Source of the DNA: Psychrilyobacter piezotolerans | Lineage (GTDB): Bacteria; Fusobacteriota; Fusobacteriia; Fusobacteriales; Fusobacteriaceae | NCBI RefSeq assembly: GCF_003391055.1 | Contig: NZ_QUAJ01000015.1 | Location: 1-64,000 of the forward strand | Length of the DNA: 64,000 bases | Direction: 5' to 3' | Shown: positions 33,114-37,834 of the stretch, one piece after another | Numbering within the stretch: the first letter of the stretch is position 1 | Layout of the letters: each line of letters begins with the position of its first letter | Position numbers and translations under genes: made by a program | The notes under the pieces: model-generated | The model's database searches: none | Told to the model about the DNA's origin: nothing | The model's input: only the letters and a program-made list of their open reading frames with translations

Positions 33114-33176
33114 GGGGAAAATGGGTGGATTTGAGGAATGGTTTTATTGTGGTAAAGGATAAAATAGGAGGAAGCT

Positions 33177-33641
33177 ATGAAGAAAATAATTTTATATCTA
33201 ATTATGGCAACAAGTATTTTAGGAGCACAATTGGTGGATGGGTATTATGTAGTACAGGAAGCCGAATATTATGCAGACGGATATGCATCGATTACCAGTA
33301 TCAAGGTAAAAAATGGTGAAATAGTAAAGGTAACGGCAGACCTGATAGATAGAAAAGGAAAGTTAGTCAGTAAGAATAAAAAGTATAACAAACAAATGCG
33401 GGCTGTAACAGGAACGGATATGAAAGAATTTTCGGTAAAAGTACCTAAAGATTTTATGGACTCATTGGAAGAAAGAAATAGGGCGGGAGGATCATCCATG
33501 GAAAATGTTGATTTTCAATTACCTTATATAGATACTCTGGCAGGTGCTACTAGTGCCAGTAAAAAATTTAAAAAGATGATGAAATTTTTGGTGGAAAAGG
33601 CAGAGTCTGGAGAAACAGGGGAATACAAGATTAAATTATAG
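33177..33641 (+). CDS. Secreted FMN-binding domain protein 1
   Basis: A 154-residue exported protein: signal peptide MKKIILYLIMATSILGA, then a single FMN-binding domain of the RnfG/NqrC C-terminal type. The ApbE flavinylation motif is D119-TLAGAT with acceptor T125 followed by SAS. ApbE attaches FMN covalently to this Thr outside the cytoplasm; apbE itself is not in the window. It is followed after 14 bases by a paralogue with the same start and end text, a tandem duplication. Likely an extracytosolic electron carrier for the Rnf-like proteins downstream. Confidence 0.85.
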   Translation: MKKIILYLIMATSILGAQLVDGYYVVQEAEYYADGYASITSIKVKNGEIVKVTADLIDRKGKLVSKNKKYNKQMRAVTGTDMKEFSVKVPKDFMDSLEERNRAGGSSMENVDFQLPYIDTLAGATSASKKFKKMMKFLVEKAESGETGEYKIKL

Positions 33642-33655
33642 AAACAGGGGGAACT

Positions 33656-34093
33656 ATGAAGAAAATAATTTTATACCTGGTTATGGGAACGACTATCCTA
33701 GGGGCACAATTGGTGGACGGATATTATTCTGTTCAGGGAGAAAAATATCATTATGGATGGTTATCAACTGCCAGTATCACAGTAGAAGACGGTGAGATAG
33801 TAGAAATTACCACCAATAAGGTGAATAAAGAGGGAGATTTAGTAACAGAGGATGCGGAATATAACAAAAAAATGCTGGCTAAATCAGGAGTTACTTTTAA
33901 AGAATTTTCAGTGGAAGGACCTAAAAACCTTATGGCAGTATTGAAGGGGAACAGGGATACGGCATTTCATCTGCCGGAGATAGATATTGTAGCAGGAGCT
34001 ACAAGTTCCAGTAAAAAATTTAAAAAGATGATGGAATTTTTGGTGGAGAAGGCAGAATCTGGAGAGGCAGGAAAGTACAGGATGAAACTATAG
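33656..34093 (+). CDS. Secreted FMN-binding domain protein 2
   Basis: A 145-residue paralogue of the preceding gene, sharing MKKIILYL at the start, LGAQLVDGYY at the mature end and SSKKFKKMM with LVEKAESGE near the C-terminus. The flavinylation motif is D110-IVAGAT (T116) followed by SSS. The centre is shortened by about nine residues. RBS agggggaa precedes the ATG. rnfC begins 15 bases later, so both belong to the Rnf-like operon. Confidence 0.85.
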   Translation: MKKIILYLVMGTTILGAQLVDGYYSVQGEKYHYGWLSTASITVEDGEIVEITTNKVNKEGDLVTEDAEYNKKMLAKSGVTFKEFSVEGPKNLMAVLKGNRDTAFHLPEIDIVAGATSSSKKFKKMMEFLVEKAESGEAGKYRMKL

Positions 34094-34108: not shown

Positions 34109-35389
34109 ATGTTTTTTAAACCTATATTTTTTAGAGGGGGAATCCACCCTGGAGAGAAAGAAATAACTTCTGAAAAAAAAATTGAAAAGATGCCGGAGGT
34201 GGGGACCTACAGAGTAACTACCCTTCAGCATATAGGTGTCCCTGCTGCTGTCATGGTCAAGGTAGGGGATCACGTAAAAAAATATCAAAAGATAGGAAAG
34301 GCTCAGGTAAAATTTTCTGCTTTTATTCACTCTCCCTGTTCCGGGAAAATTACCCAGATAAAAAAAATTAATATAAGGGGACGGGAAGCAGAAGAGATAA
34401 CTATAGAAAATGATTTTTCAGGGGAAGAATTTGAAAGAAAGGGTCTTCGAAATTTTACTCCTGAAAAACTCCAGGAATTAGTGGATGATCTGGGGATAGT
34501 AGGTCTCGGAGGAGCTACCTTTCCTACCCATATTAAACTGGAAGGAAAGTTGAAAACCATCATAATAAATGGTGTTGAATGTGAGCCCTATTTAAACGCT
34601 GATAATAGAGTAATGATCGAGAGTACGTATGAAATATTAGATGGAATAGAAATTCTTATGACGACATTTGACATGGAAGAAGGGATAATAGGGATAGAGG
34701 AAAATAAAGTTGTGGCCATTGAAAAAATGGAACAGGCTGTCAAAGGATATTCCAGGATCAGGGTACAAAAATTACCCACCATATATCCCCAGGGGGCAGA
34801 AAAACAGCTTATAAAAGCTTTATTGAAAAAGGAGATAAAATCTTTTCCCATGGAGATAGAGGCTGTCACTTTAAATGTTGGTACTATTTTGGCTATCTAC
34901 AGGGGAGTAACCTATGGAACTCCAATAGTCGAACGTATAGTCACAGTATCCGGGGAAGGGATAGAAAACCCTAAAAACCTATCTATTCCCATAGGAACTC
35001 CGGTAAAAGATGTTTTAAATTATGTAGGAGTTAAGGAAGATATAGTGGATAAAATCATAGCCTGCGGGCCTATGATGGGCCGAGAGATAGGAGAAACAGA
35101 GGTCACTTCCAAGGGAATGAACGGTATTTTGGCCTTAGGAAAGGAAAAATTTCCTCCTAAATTACCTTGTATAAGGTGCGGAAGGTGTGTAGACGTATGC
35201 CCCATGGGGCTTCTCCCCTTGGAATATGACAGGCTGGCAAAAAAAGGGAAGTATCATCAGATGGAAAAAGAATTTTCCCTGTCTTCCTGTATAAAATGCG
35301 GCAATTGTGAATATATATGTCCCAGCCAGGTTCCTCTGATGGAGGCTATATTTTTAGGACTGGAAAAGGGAAGGGATAGAGATGACTAA
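34109..35389 (+). CDS. rnfC: RnfC-like NADH-side electron-transfer subunit
   Basis: A 426-residue peripheral subunit that in Rnf complexes oxidises or reduces NAD and holds FMN and iron-sulfur clusters. Visible: the N-terminal FRGGIHPGEKE, the barrel-sandwich part (VKVGDHVKKYQKIGKAQ), the NADH/FMN part (GLGGATFPTHIKL, INGVECEPYLNADNRVM) and two [4Fe-4S] motifs with C354, C357, C360, C364 and C394, C397, C400, C404. Length is near that of compact RnfC proteins. Its last 8 bases overlap the next gene, implying coupled translation. Confidence 0.92.
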   Translation: MFFKPIFFRGGIHPGEKEITSEKKIEKMPEVGTYRVTTLQHIGVPAAVMVKVGDHVKKYQKIGKAQVKFSAFIHSPCSGKITQIKKINIRGREAEEITIENDFSGEEFERKGLRNFTPEKLQELVDDLGIVGLGGATFPTHIKLEGKLKTIIINGVECEPYLNADNRVMIESTYEILDGIEILMTTFDMEEGIIGIEENKVVAIEKMEQAVKGYSRIRVQKLPTIYPQGAEKQLIKALLKKEIKSFPMEIEAVTLNVGTILAIYRGVTYGTPIVERIVTVSGEGIENPKNLSIPIGTPVKDVLNYVGVKEDIVDKIIACGPMMGREIGETEVTSKGMNGILALGKEKFPPKLPCIRCGRCVDVCPMGLLPLEYDRLAKKGKYHQMEKEFSLSSCIKCGNCEYICPSQVPLMEAIFLGLEKGRDRDD

Positions 35390-36902
35390 GACAGCTCCTT
35401 ATATTAGTTCAAAGAACACAACTCAAAATCTCATGAGAGAAGTGGGGATAGCCCTCCTTCCATGTATGGCAGTGAGTATCTATTTTTATGGAACAGCAGC
35501 GGTAAAGATCCTGTTAAGTACGGTAATATTTTCATTTTTTACTGAAATTTTTTGGCAAAATATAAAAAAAGAGAGGACTCACGATGGCAGCGGGATAATA
35601 GCCGGGCTGATCCTGGCCCTCTCTCTGCCGTCCACAACTCCATTTTATGTAGCAGGAATAGGAGGGGTTATAGCCATTTCAAGTAAACATATCTTGGGAG
35701 GGCTGGGGAAAAATTTATTTAATCCGGCAATCCTGGGAAGGTTATTTTTAATGATAGTATTTCCCATGTACCTCTATCAGGTAAATAACTTTGATGGAAC
35801 TGCCGGGGTGTCCCTCTACCCTATTATAAAATATGGGGGGCTCTCTGAAATCATAGGTGACCTGGGAGAACCTTTATTTTACAGGAATTTAATCCTGGGA
35901 AACAGGCTGGGAAGTATCGGAGAAAGCTCTATAATTGCAGTTTTTTTAGGGTATGTTTATCTGGTCTGTAAAAAATCCATAAAGTGGGAGGGACCTGTAA
36001 TCTTATTGGGAACAATATATGTATTGAACAGTTTTGTGTCTCCTAATCCATTTTTAAATATGATCATAGGGGGCGGATTATTTGCTTCGGTATTTATAGT
36101 TACCGATCCGGTTACCAGCCCCTATACAAGGCTGGGATATGGTTTTTATCTGGTATTGATGGGAATCTTTATTTTCGGGATAACGGAATTTACCAGTCAG
36201 CCCACAGGGATAACCATGGGGATATTAGGAGCAAATTTAATGGTTCCCATAATCAATAGATATACTCCAAACAGGGTTTTTGCCAAATCCTATCCCTATC
36301 TTAAACTTGTAAAATTGATTTTAATCAGCAGTTTATTTATAATGGGAGGATTTTATCTAGTCACCTATAAAAATAAAGAGATTATTCCCAAGGGGATAAA
36401 TTATACAAATTTAAGAAAATATTTCGGAAGTGATGTGGAATTTGAGGACAAAATAATTGAGGATGGATTTATCTATTATCCCTTAAAAAGAGATGAAATG
36501 GATATAGGAACTTATGTTGTGGGAGACTCCAAGGGATACGGAAAAGAAAGGATAGGTTTTGATCTGGCTGTAGATACAGAACATAAGATAAAAGGGCTGA
36601 CAATAACTCATGAAAAGGAAACGTGGAGATTGGGAGACCAGATCTCTTCTTCCTGCTGGCAGAATCAGTGGATAGGAAGGGACAGCAGTTATAAGTTCAA
36701 TAAAGAAGTTGATGGTTTTTTAGGGGCTACATATACCTCTAAAAATCTGCACAGGACCTTTAAAAAAATCCTGCAAACTCATGAAAGACTCTTTGGTAAA
36801 GGTTATTCCGACATAGATGGAAGTGGAGGGGCTACCGATACATACACAGATGGAACCGGAGGAGCCACAGATATAGACGGAACCGGCGGGGCTACAGATT
36901 AA
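35382..36902 (+). CDS. RnfD-RnfG fusion protein with triple flavinylation-like tail
   Basis: A 506-residue fusion. Residues 1 to about 310 are RnfD-like with around nine membrane segments (LGGLGKNLFNPAILGR is the family core); the usual TGAT flavin site reads DGTAGVSL, so Ser would be the acceptor. After one more segment (about 311-332) comes an RnfG-like FMN-binding domain with D444-GFLGAT and acceptor T450. Residues 477-506 are three near-identical units DG(S/T)GGATD (at 479, 490 and 499), each like an ApbE site. Fusion of the two subunits and the tail are both unusual. Confidence 0.88.
   Translation: MTKTAPYISSKNTTQNLMREVGIALLPCMAVSIYFYGTAAVKILLSTVIFSFFTEIFWQNIKKERTHDGSGIIAGLILALSLPSTTPFYVAGIGGVIAISSKHILGGLGKNLFNPAILGRLFLMIVFPMYLYQVNNFDGTAGVSLYPIIKYGGLSEIIGDLGEPLFYRNLILGNRLGSIGESSIIAVFLGYVYLVCKKSIKWEGPVILLGTIYVLNSFVSPNPFLNMIIGGGLFASVFIVTDPVTSPYTRLGYGFYLVLMGIFIFGITEFTSQPTGITMGILGANLMVPIINRYTPNRVFAKSYPYLKLVKLILISSLFIMGGFYLVTYKNKEIIPKGINYTNLRKYFGSDVEFEDKIIEDGFIYYPLKRDEMDIGTYVVGDSKGYGKERIGFDLAVDTEHKIKGLTITHEKETWRLGDQISSSCWQNQWIGRDSSYKFNKEVDGFLGATYTSKNLHRTFKKILQTHERLFGKGYSDIDGSGGATDTYTDGTGGATDIDGTGGATD
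36810..36899 (+). repeat. Three tandem DG(S/T)GGATD codon repeats
   Basis: Units lie at 36816-36839, 36849-36872 and 36876-36899. They encode nearly the same eight residues but use different synonymous codons (gga ggg gct acc gat; gga gga gcc aca gat; ggc ggg gct aca gat). The protein text is kept while the DNA has drifted, which suggests selection on the residues. Confidence 0.85.
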
Positions 36903-36916
36903 GAAAAGGAGAAAAT

Positions 36917-37369
36917 ATGGATATATATGAAGAGATCGAAAAAATTATAGAAAATTTAGAGGATAAAAATAATGAATTGGAAGTGTTGGAATTCATTCAA
37001 AATTCAGAGGGCTGTATATCTAAAGATATGATAAAATTTGTTGCAGAGAAGATGGATAAATTTGATTTTTCTATTGAGAATACAATTAAATTCTATCCCC
37101 ACCTGAAGACCGAGGGGAAACAAATTATAGAGGTGAAGGTCTGCACCCATACAGCTTGTAAAAACAATGGAAGCGGGAAGATACTGGAGGAAGCTAAAAA
37201 GCTTTTAGGGGTAGAAGTAGATGAAATAACTCCTGACGGGAAATACAGATTGATGACCCAGAGATGTTTCGGTCAGTGCGGGAAGGGACCCAATGTGAAG
37301 ATAGGCAGTGAGATCTATAATAAGATGACCCCTGAGATCCTGGGCAATTTACTAATAGAAAAAAATTAA
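36917..37369 (+). CDS. NuoE-like thioredoxin-fold [2Fe-2S] protein
   Basis: A 150-residue soluble protein with a three-helix N-terminal part and a thioredoxin-like [2Fe-2S] domain. The four ligands have the NuoE spacing: C76-x4-C81 and C117-x3-C121. Such proteins pass electrons from flavin-NADH modules (NuoF, HydB) or act as small carriers; no NuoF is nearby. It follows the RnfDG fusion by 14 bases and probably serves the same route. RBS aaaggaga precedes the ATG. Confidence 0.88.
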   Translation: MDIYEEIEKIIENLEDKNNELEVLEFIQNSEGCISKDMIKFVAEKMDKFDFSIENTIKFYPHLKTEGKQIIEVKVCTHTACKNNGSGKILEEAKKLLGVEVDEITPDGKYRLMTQRCFGQCGKGPNVKIGSEIYNKMTPEILGNLLIEKN

Positions 37370-37429: not shown

Positions 37430-37834
37430 ATGTTAATAAAAGATTTAAAGATAGATCAAGTTTTAGAAAACAAGGAGATAGCAGAGACTTTTCTGTGTTC
37501 AAACCAGGGGGGAGTCAGAAAGAGTAAGAAAACTAATACCATAGTTCTGCTGGCTAAATTTAATAACTGCTCGTATAAACACAGAAAGGATGGAGATATC
37601 CTTTATTTTACCGGGATGGGTAAAAAAGGTGATCAGGAGATGAAAAGACAGAATAAATCTATCTTAAATGCCAAAGGGGAGGGGTTTGCCCTTCATCTGT
37701 TAGAATTATATGAAGATAAAAAATATATCTACAAGGGAGAGGTGGAGCTGGTTTCGAGTCCCGTAATAGAGAGACAATTAGATGACAATAAAGAGGAGAG
37801 GGATGTTTTTATCTTTCCCCTAAAGATAAAGTAA
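37430..37834 (+). CDS. Stand-alone SRA-like (ScoMcrA-type) modified-DNA-binding domain
   Basis: A 134-residue protein. It matches the N-terminal domain commonly found ahead of HNH nucleases in modification-dependent restriction enzymes: SNQGGVRKSKKTNTIVLL, then GDILYFTGMGKKGDQ, NKSILNAKGEG, YIYKGEVELVSSP and FIFPLKI. Here there is no nuclease domain and none next door. It could be a truncated restriction gene, a reader of modified DNA, or a decoy. Preceded by dispersed repeat text (accacgaattacactaatgg at 37369-37388) and followed by a terminator. Confidence 0.75.
   Translation: MLIKDLKIDQVLENKEIAETFLCSNQGGVRKSKKTNTIVLLAKFNNCSYKHRKDGDILYFTGMGKKGDQEMKRQNKSILNAKGEGFALHLLELYEDKKYIYKGEVELVSSPVIERQLDDNKEERDVFIFPLKIK

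Follow-up and report, generated by a model that had tools for sequence, protein, structure and literature searches.

The window, a 64,000-nucleotide stretch of the Psychrilyobacter piezotolerans genome, encodes an RnfD-RnfG fusion protein whose C-terminal tail carries three short D-G-x-G-G-A-T motifs. Judged from their sequence, these are probably peptide-only ApbE sites, at which attachment of FMN is predicted. Similar tails are kept on fusions of other genera, and we consider below what a tail of this type may do for the membrane complex to which it belongs.

The RnfD-RnfG fusion and its C-terminal tail

The RnfD part of the fusion (PF03116, residues 2 to 300, E value of 1.9e-68) is followed by an FMN_bind domain (PF04205, residues 390 to 464, E value of 5e-8). 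In profile searches, the fusion matches solved structures of both RnfD (7zc6_D, 9eri_D, and 8ahx_D) and RnfG (7zc6_G, 8ahx_G, and 9eri_G), and a single-sequence AlphaFold model of the fusion has a pLDDT of 40. The C-terminal end reads SDIDGSGGATDTYTDGTGGATDIDGTGGATD and includes three DGxGGAT units, each directly followed by D and each written with different codons (for coordinates, see Table 1). Units 2 and 3 are identical over eight residues and have four synonymous differences (GAT/GAC, GGA/GGC, GGA/GGG, and GCC/GCT). The units are spaced unevenly, by 11 and then 9 residues, which shows that the tail is not an exact tandem repeat. Thus, two features named in the preliminary description, three units with synonymously differing codons and a tail located downstream of a genuine FMN-binding domain, are both borne out. 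The tail is predicted to be extracytosolic, a side that we deduced from RnfG topology.

Table 1. Positions in the window of the fusion, its putative flavin sites, and the neighboring genes
Feature	Coordinates	Strand	Residues	Remarks
Secreted PplA-like FMN_bind protein 1	33177..33641	+		Site DTLAGAT; NCBIfam PplA, E 1e-18; Pfam FMN_bind, E 0.006, under cut-off; signal peptide by eye
Secreted PplA-like FMN_bind protein 2	33656..34093	+		Site DIVAGAT; Pfam FMN_bind over cut-off; NCBIfam PplA, E 2e-22
RnfC, cytosolic	34109..35389	+		NADH/FMN domain and two 4Fe-4S motifs; TIGR01945, 444.7 bits; Complex1_51K; Fer4
RnfD-RnfG fusion	35382..36902	+	506 aa	ORF
RnfD flavin site position, degenerate (DGTAGVS)	35793..35813	+	138-144	Both congeners identical; Ilyobacter has an intact DGLAGAT
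Core RnfG flavin site (DGFLGAT)	36711..36731	+	444-450	D444, G448, A449, and T450 invariant in alignment A1
C-terminal tail	36792..36899	+	471-506 (36 residues)	Predicted extracytosolic and unstructured, from sequence; without counterpart in stand-alone RnfG
Tail motif 1 (DGSGGAT)	36816..36836	+	479-485	Predicted FMN on Thr485
Tail motif 2 (DGTGGAT)	36849..36869	+	490-496	Predicted FMN on Thr496
Tail motif 3 (DGTGGAT)	36876..36896	+	499-505	Predicted FMN on Thr505, 1 residue before C-terminus
NuoE-like [2Fe-2S] protein	36917..37369	+		Possible RnfC partner; PF01257, E 7.5e-31; same order in two congeners

Three motifs were reached in none of 50,000 shuffles of the window tail residues, which indicates that they are more than a product of chance. 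A DNA-level search of the 3.36-Mb genome for DGxGGA[TS] gives four matches, three of them in the fusion tail and one in cytosolic PurL, while a reversed control pattern has 0 matches in this genome and 3 across all 98 genomes of the phylum that make up our sample of relatives.

Conservation of the tail motif and its fit to the ApbE site

Ten D-G fusions are found among the 98 genomes, and 8 of these 10, in three genera, have a tail with 1 to 3 extra D-x-x-x-G-A-[T/S] motifs (19 motifs in total). Because the number of motifs per tail varies from 1 to 3 across species, the three copies in the window are not special. Two motifs are present in each of the congeners (EIDGTGGATD...DIDGVGGATD in G059 and EIDGNGGATY...DIDGKGGATE in G055), and three DGEGGA[TS] motifs are present in each member of the Ilyobacter group (G042, G043, and G044), where they lie within acidic repeats of ~30 residues. 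A long Lys/Glu-rich linker leads to DGEAGAT 4 residues from the end in G047 and to DGEAGAS 3 residues from the end in G046, which also has a further DSEGGAS. The fusions of G041 and G045 were found to have no tail motif, indicating that the tail is not essential to the fusion. The stand-alone RnfG proteins that we read in the phylum stop shortly beyond the core domain and have no tail; the tail is thus a feature of the fused form.

G042 has an RnfD match on contig C2 (67993-68919), and the plasmid record NC_014633.1 has one on the same strand (68080-68919), which makes it very probable that G042 is Ilyobacter polytropus DSM 2926. There is no further D-G fusion among the matches listed for plasmid records. 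A protein-level scan of the genome contigs gave one distant RnfD only. The tree, which has two changes and in which long branches meet, does not demonstrate a single origin of the D-G fusion.

The linkers of the tails cannot be aligned between genera, while the motif stays. Positions 1, 5, and 6 of the motif are invariant (D, G, and A, respectively, each in 19/19), position 2 is G in 18/19, position 3 varies freely, position 4 is G in 17/19 and A in 2/19, and the acceptor at position 7 is T in 16/19 and S in 3/19. Shuffling each tail separately gives a P value of 1e-4 or below for D-G-x-x-G-A-[S/T]. In the Ilyobacter trio, pN is 0 to 0.02 and pS is 0.18 to 0.48 for the motif codons, compared with a pN of 0.03 to 0.08 and a pS of 0.11 to 0.21 for the linkers; the amino acid constraint in this trio is stronger on the motif than on the linkers. 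In the window's genus, position 3 is where residues differ when the motifs of the two congeners are aligned, although the codons are too few for a rate test. The preliminary description had read selection on the protein from the synonymous codon differences, and the retention of the motif in three genera with diverged linkers, together with an acceptor that changes only between Thr and Ser, supports this. It had also proposed a search for the repeated motif at the C-terminus of homologues in the phylum, which the 8 tailed fusions answer, and had named, among the outcomes that would speak against its reading, a freely changing tail that no relative shares, which is not what we observe.

The published ApbE site is the 7-mer D-x-x-[S/T]-G-A-[S/T], which is sufficient as a tag and is modified best at a terminus; Ser is taken less well than Thr as the acceptor, and an Ala-to-Val change brings modification down to about half (PMC12052999). 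All 19 tail motifs have a Thr/Ser acceptor after G-A and an Asp six residues before the acceptor. The earlier claim that the units fit the shape of an ApbE site holds for these residues; at position 4, the tail motifs have G or A rather than the S/T of the consensus. However, the RnfD flavin sites of the phylum (DD[VMI]GGAT, DGKGGAT, and DGKAGAT) have G or A at this position as well, which indicates that these residues are usual there in this phylum. The published consensus appears to be narrower than the natural range.

Elsewhere in the phylum, DGxGGA[TS] is detected at the DNA level in PurL, which is cytosolic and universal, in a few secreted proteins, and, for some species, in the flavin site of RnfD itself; further matches are in proteins that we take to be PrpF-like. 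A family of small secreted proteins, mostly lipoproteins, has an ApbE-like motif just past the signal peptide, followed by helical-looking sequence (L086, 1603-1932 and 2023-2349; L087, 1546-1875 and 1965-2294; L088, 1447-1776; L077, 3499-3855; and L037, 6157-6702). The motifs in this family are DAQAGAS, DGYGGAS, and DGLGGAS (the last twice in G041), in which D and G-A-S stay and the inner residues change, and the family is possibly a new ApbE substrate. In G041, a gene of this family is divergent from the rnfC-rnfDG operon that encodes one of the tail-less fusions. A large secreted protein of G038 that is autotransporter-like by eye (L078, 3065-7003) has DGKGGAS and DGKAGAS flanking a Lys/Glu-rich linker. 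As a caution, DGKGGAS is also found in a G075 protein of PTS permease type (L079, 1794-3383), within a linker that is presumably cytosolic; this is likely a chance match.

Gene clusters around the fusions

The fusion of the window lies in a cluster with the order PplA-like (two genes), RnfC, RnfDG, and NuoE-like, whereas the clusters of the congeners include three PplA-like FMN proteins. The third one in both congeners is a small protein that has a DTIAGAT site and is encoded upstream of the cluster (L032, 6221-6652; L033, 11044-11475); the window lacks it (positions 33114-33176). Downstream of the cluster, the window and both congeners share an ORF of 134 residues (window positions 37430-37834) without a Pfam or NCBIfam match.

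In G041, G042 to G044, and G046 to G047, RnfC and RnfDG are followed by two small membrane proteins. The second one is a relative of RnfA (hhalign E value of 4e-8 over 171 columns), and the first is probably a relative of RnfE, based on a weak hhalign match (E value of 0.001 over 55 columns). Canonical RnfA and RnfE hold a [2Fe-2S] cluster by means of cysteines (Cys28 and Cys116; Cys28 and Cys111), and these cluster cysteines are lost in the RnfA-like and RnfE-like proteins of g8, g9, and g11. Membrane proteins that have lost these cysteines are encoded at L036, 9965-11000; L037, 9673-10664; L039, 9716-10767; and L040, 5710-6761. RnfA/E-like genes were not found in the clusters of genera g1 and g10, and RnfB was not found in any of the ten fusion clusters in the 5 to 9 kb or so that we read on each side.

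In the Rnf complex, the electron path runs from ferredoxin through RnfB, RnfA/E, the RnfG FMN, the RnfD flavins, and RnfC to NAD, and is U-shaped, with the C, D, and G subunits forming one arm (PMC11889175). By gene content, the fusion clusters look like half an Rnf, in which the NADH-binding RnfC and RnfDG are present and the ferredoxin-side half is missing, a point that the preliminary description does not make. Since only the RnfG-RnfD-RnfC arm is kept, such a complex is likely to move electrons outward from NADH, and RnfA/E is unlikely to pump Na+. Separate from the fusion cluster, the genome of the window encodes a complete RnfCDGEAB cluster on contig C31. An Rnf-like D-G-E-A-B cluster without an adjacent RnfC is located on contig C8 of this genome (L081, 6316-10116, in G000), and its A/E cysteines are kept.

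Proposed electron path and comparison with known systems

From the observed sequence, its conservation, the gene context, and the missing RnfB and RnfA/E cysteines, we infer FMN on the tail, mobility of the tail, the direction of electron flow, and its acceptors, and we consider it probable that the complex exports NADH electrons in one direction only and that its tail, flexible and loaded with FMN, relays them to extracytosolic carriers. After export of the protein, the periplasmic lipoprotein ApbE, for which the genome has one gene with a lipobox, would put FMN on the last Thr/Ser of each D-G-x-G-G-A-T unit. Electrons would pass from NADH to RnfC, perhaps with the help of the NuoE-like protein in the window's genus, and through the membrane by way of the RnfD flavins to the FMN of the RnfG domain. 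The mobile tail FMNs would then transfer the electrons to soluble FMN proteins, for example the two PplA-like neighbors. With one core FMN and up to three tail FMNs, the arm would bring partners away from the membrane within reach. We give about even chances to the reading that this is a natural flavin brush, a peptide-only array of FMN sites on the disordered arm of a half-Rnf exporter that distributes NADH electrons to many extracytosolic partners. A flavin reductase encoded on contig C55 was dropped as a candidate acceptor: it has neither a signal peptide nor a GA[T/S] site.

One alternative is that the tail is flavinylated and its FMNs serve as a local electron store or an oxygen sink rather than as a relay. 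The sequence gives no means of telling relay from store, and no acceptor was found, but FMN_bind partner genes are kept beside the fusion in the congeners, which suggests that electrons are handed over, and we consider storage unlikely. A second alternative, which we consider quite unlikely, is that the tail acts as a decoy or docking site for ApbE, keeping the enzyme near the complex so that the core site is flavinylated faster, and that any tail FMN carries no electrons. This is consistent with the fit of the motif to the ApbE site and with the location of the ApbE gene with the lipobox (lipoprotein-type signal), which is on contig C32, outside the fusion's cluster. However, a decoy does not need a good acceptor, yet Thr or Ser is present in every tail motif, and stand-alone RnfG has the core site without any tail. 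It is very improbable that flavin is not involved and that the Asp/Gly-rich repeats instead bind a cation such as calcium or form an acidic spacer: although the window tail is acidic with DxDG strings and the Ilyobacter linkers are strongly acidic, linker charge is not kept (the g11 linkers are mixed Lys/Glu) while G-A-[T/S] is invariant, and Pfam detects no calcium-binding family in the fusion. Neutral, functionless repeat expansion of a low-complexity end would account for the differences in motif number and spacing between species but is hardly credible, because the residues stay while synonymous codons diverge, the same motif is found in unrelated linkers of other genera, and shuffles fail to reproduce it.

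If the tails do carry FMN, a membrane complex can gain redox cofactors, several together, through peptides of seven residues instead of whole domains. Thr-to-Ala changes would then provide a simple genetic handle on long-range flavin electron transfer, flavinylated proteins would be undercounted in domain-based surveys, and the RnfC-RnfDG half-complex would be a further exit for NADH electrons in fermenting fusobacteria that also keep a normal Rnf pump.

In a literature search confined to main texts outside subscription journals, we came across neither a peptide array on RnfDG nor an RnfC-RnfDG half-complex. The preliminary description knew of no such tail on RnfG; this stands for the peptide array, although both domain-duplicated, multi-flavinylated RnfG and C-terminal flavinylation in FMN_red proteins are known. 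Multi-flavinylated RnfG and other such proteins have been counted by whole FMN_bind domains (Meheust et al. 2021, PMC8238504), of which at least two are required and of which Pfam finds only one in the fusion chain. Multi-flavinylated RnfG resembles the fusion in that the RnfG side of an Rnf cluster has more than one ApbE site, and it has been proposed to supply electrons to further acceptors outside the cytosol (PMC8238504); in the fusion, however, the predicted extra sites are 7-residue peptides without a domain, in a tail that appears to be unstructured. FMN_red proteins are a natural precedent, in that their unstructured C-terminal extension bears one or two ApbE motifs, with flavinylation demonstrated via mutagenesis (PMC10979944, PMC11334425), but they belong to a flavodoxin-type reductase family, and the proposed role of their extension is to return FMN to the flavin pocket of the same protein.

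Compared with the Rnf complex (RnfABCDGE), the cluster of the window shares the RnfC, RnfD, and RnfG parts, while clusters of its type lack RnfB, have RnfA/E that is missing or without Fe-S cysteines, have D and G fused, and have the tail added. Nqr/Rnf-like complexes are one-way routes from NAD(P)H to the outside, as we propose for the fusion complex, and they share with the window an RnfD/NqrB flavin site that is not conserved (PMC8238504, PMC10979944). These complexes, as defined by Meheust et al., have the NAD-binding domain PF00175 fused to RnfD, whereas Pfam detects only PF03116 and PF04205 in the fusion, in which RnfG is fused to RnfD and the cytosolic side is RnfC. A flavin brush would work similarly to the swinging lipoyl arm of 2-oxoacid dehydrogenases, but with a covalent flavin. 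The closing comparison is with the engineered Flavin-tag (Tong et al. 2021), for which, as it is described in PMC12052999, a short terminal ApbE peptide is sufficient for FMN attachment; in that description the tag is artificial and single, whereas the fusion tail is natural and has up to three copies.
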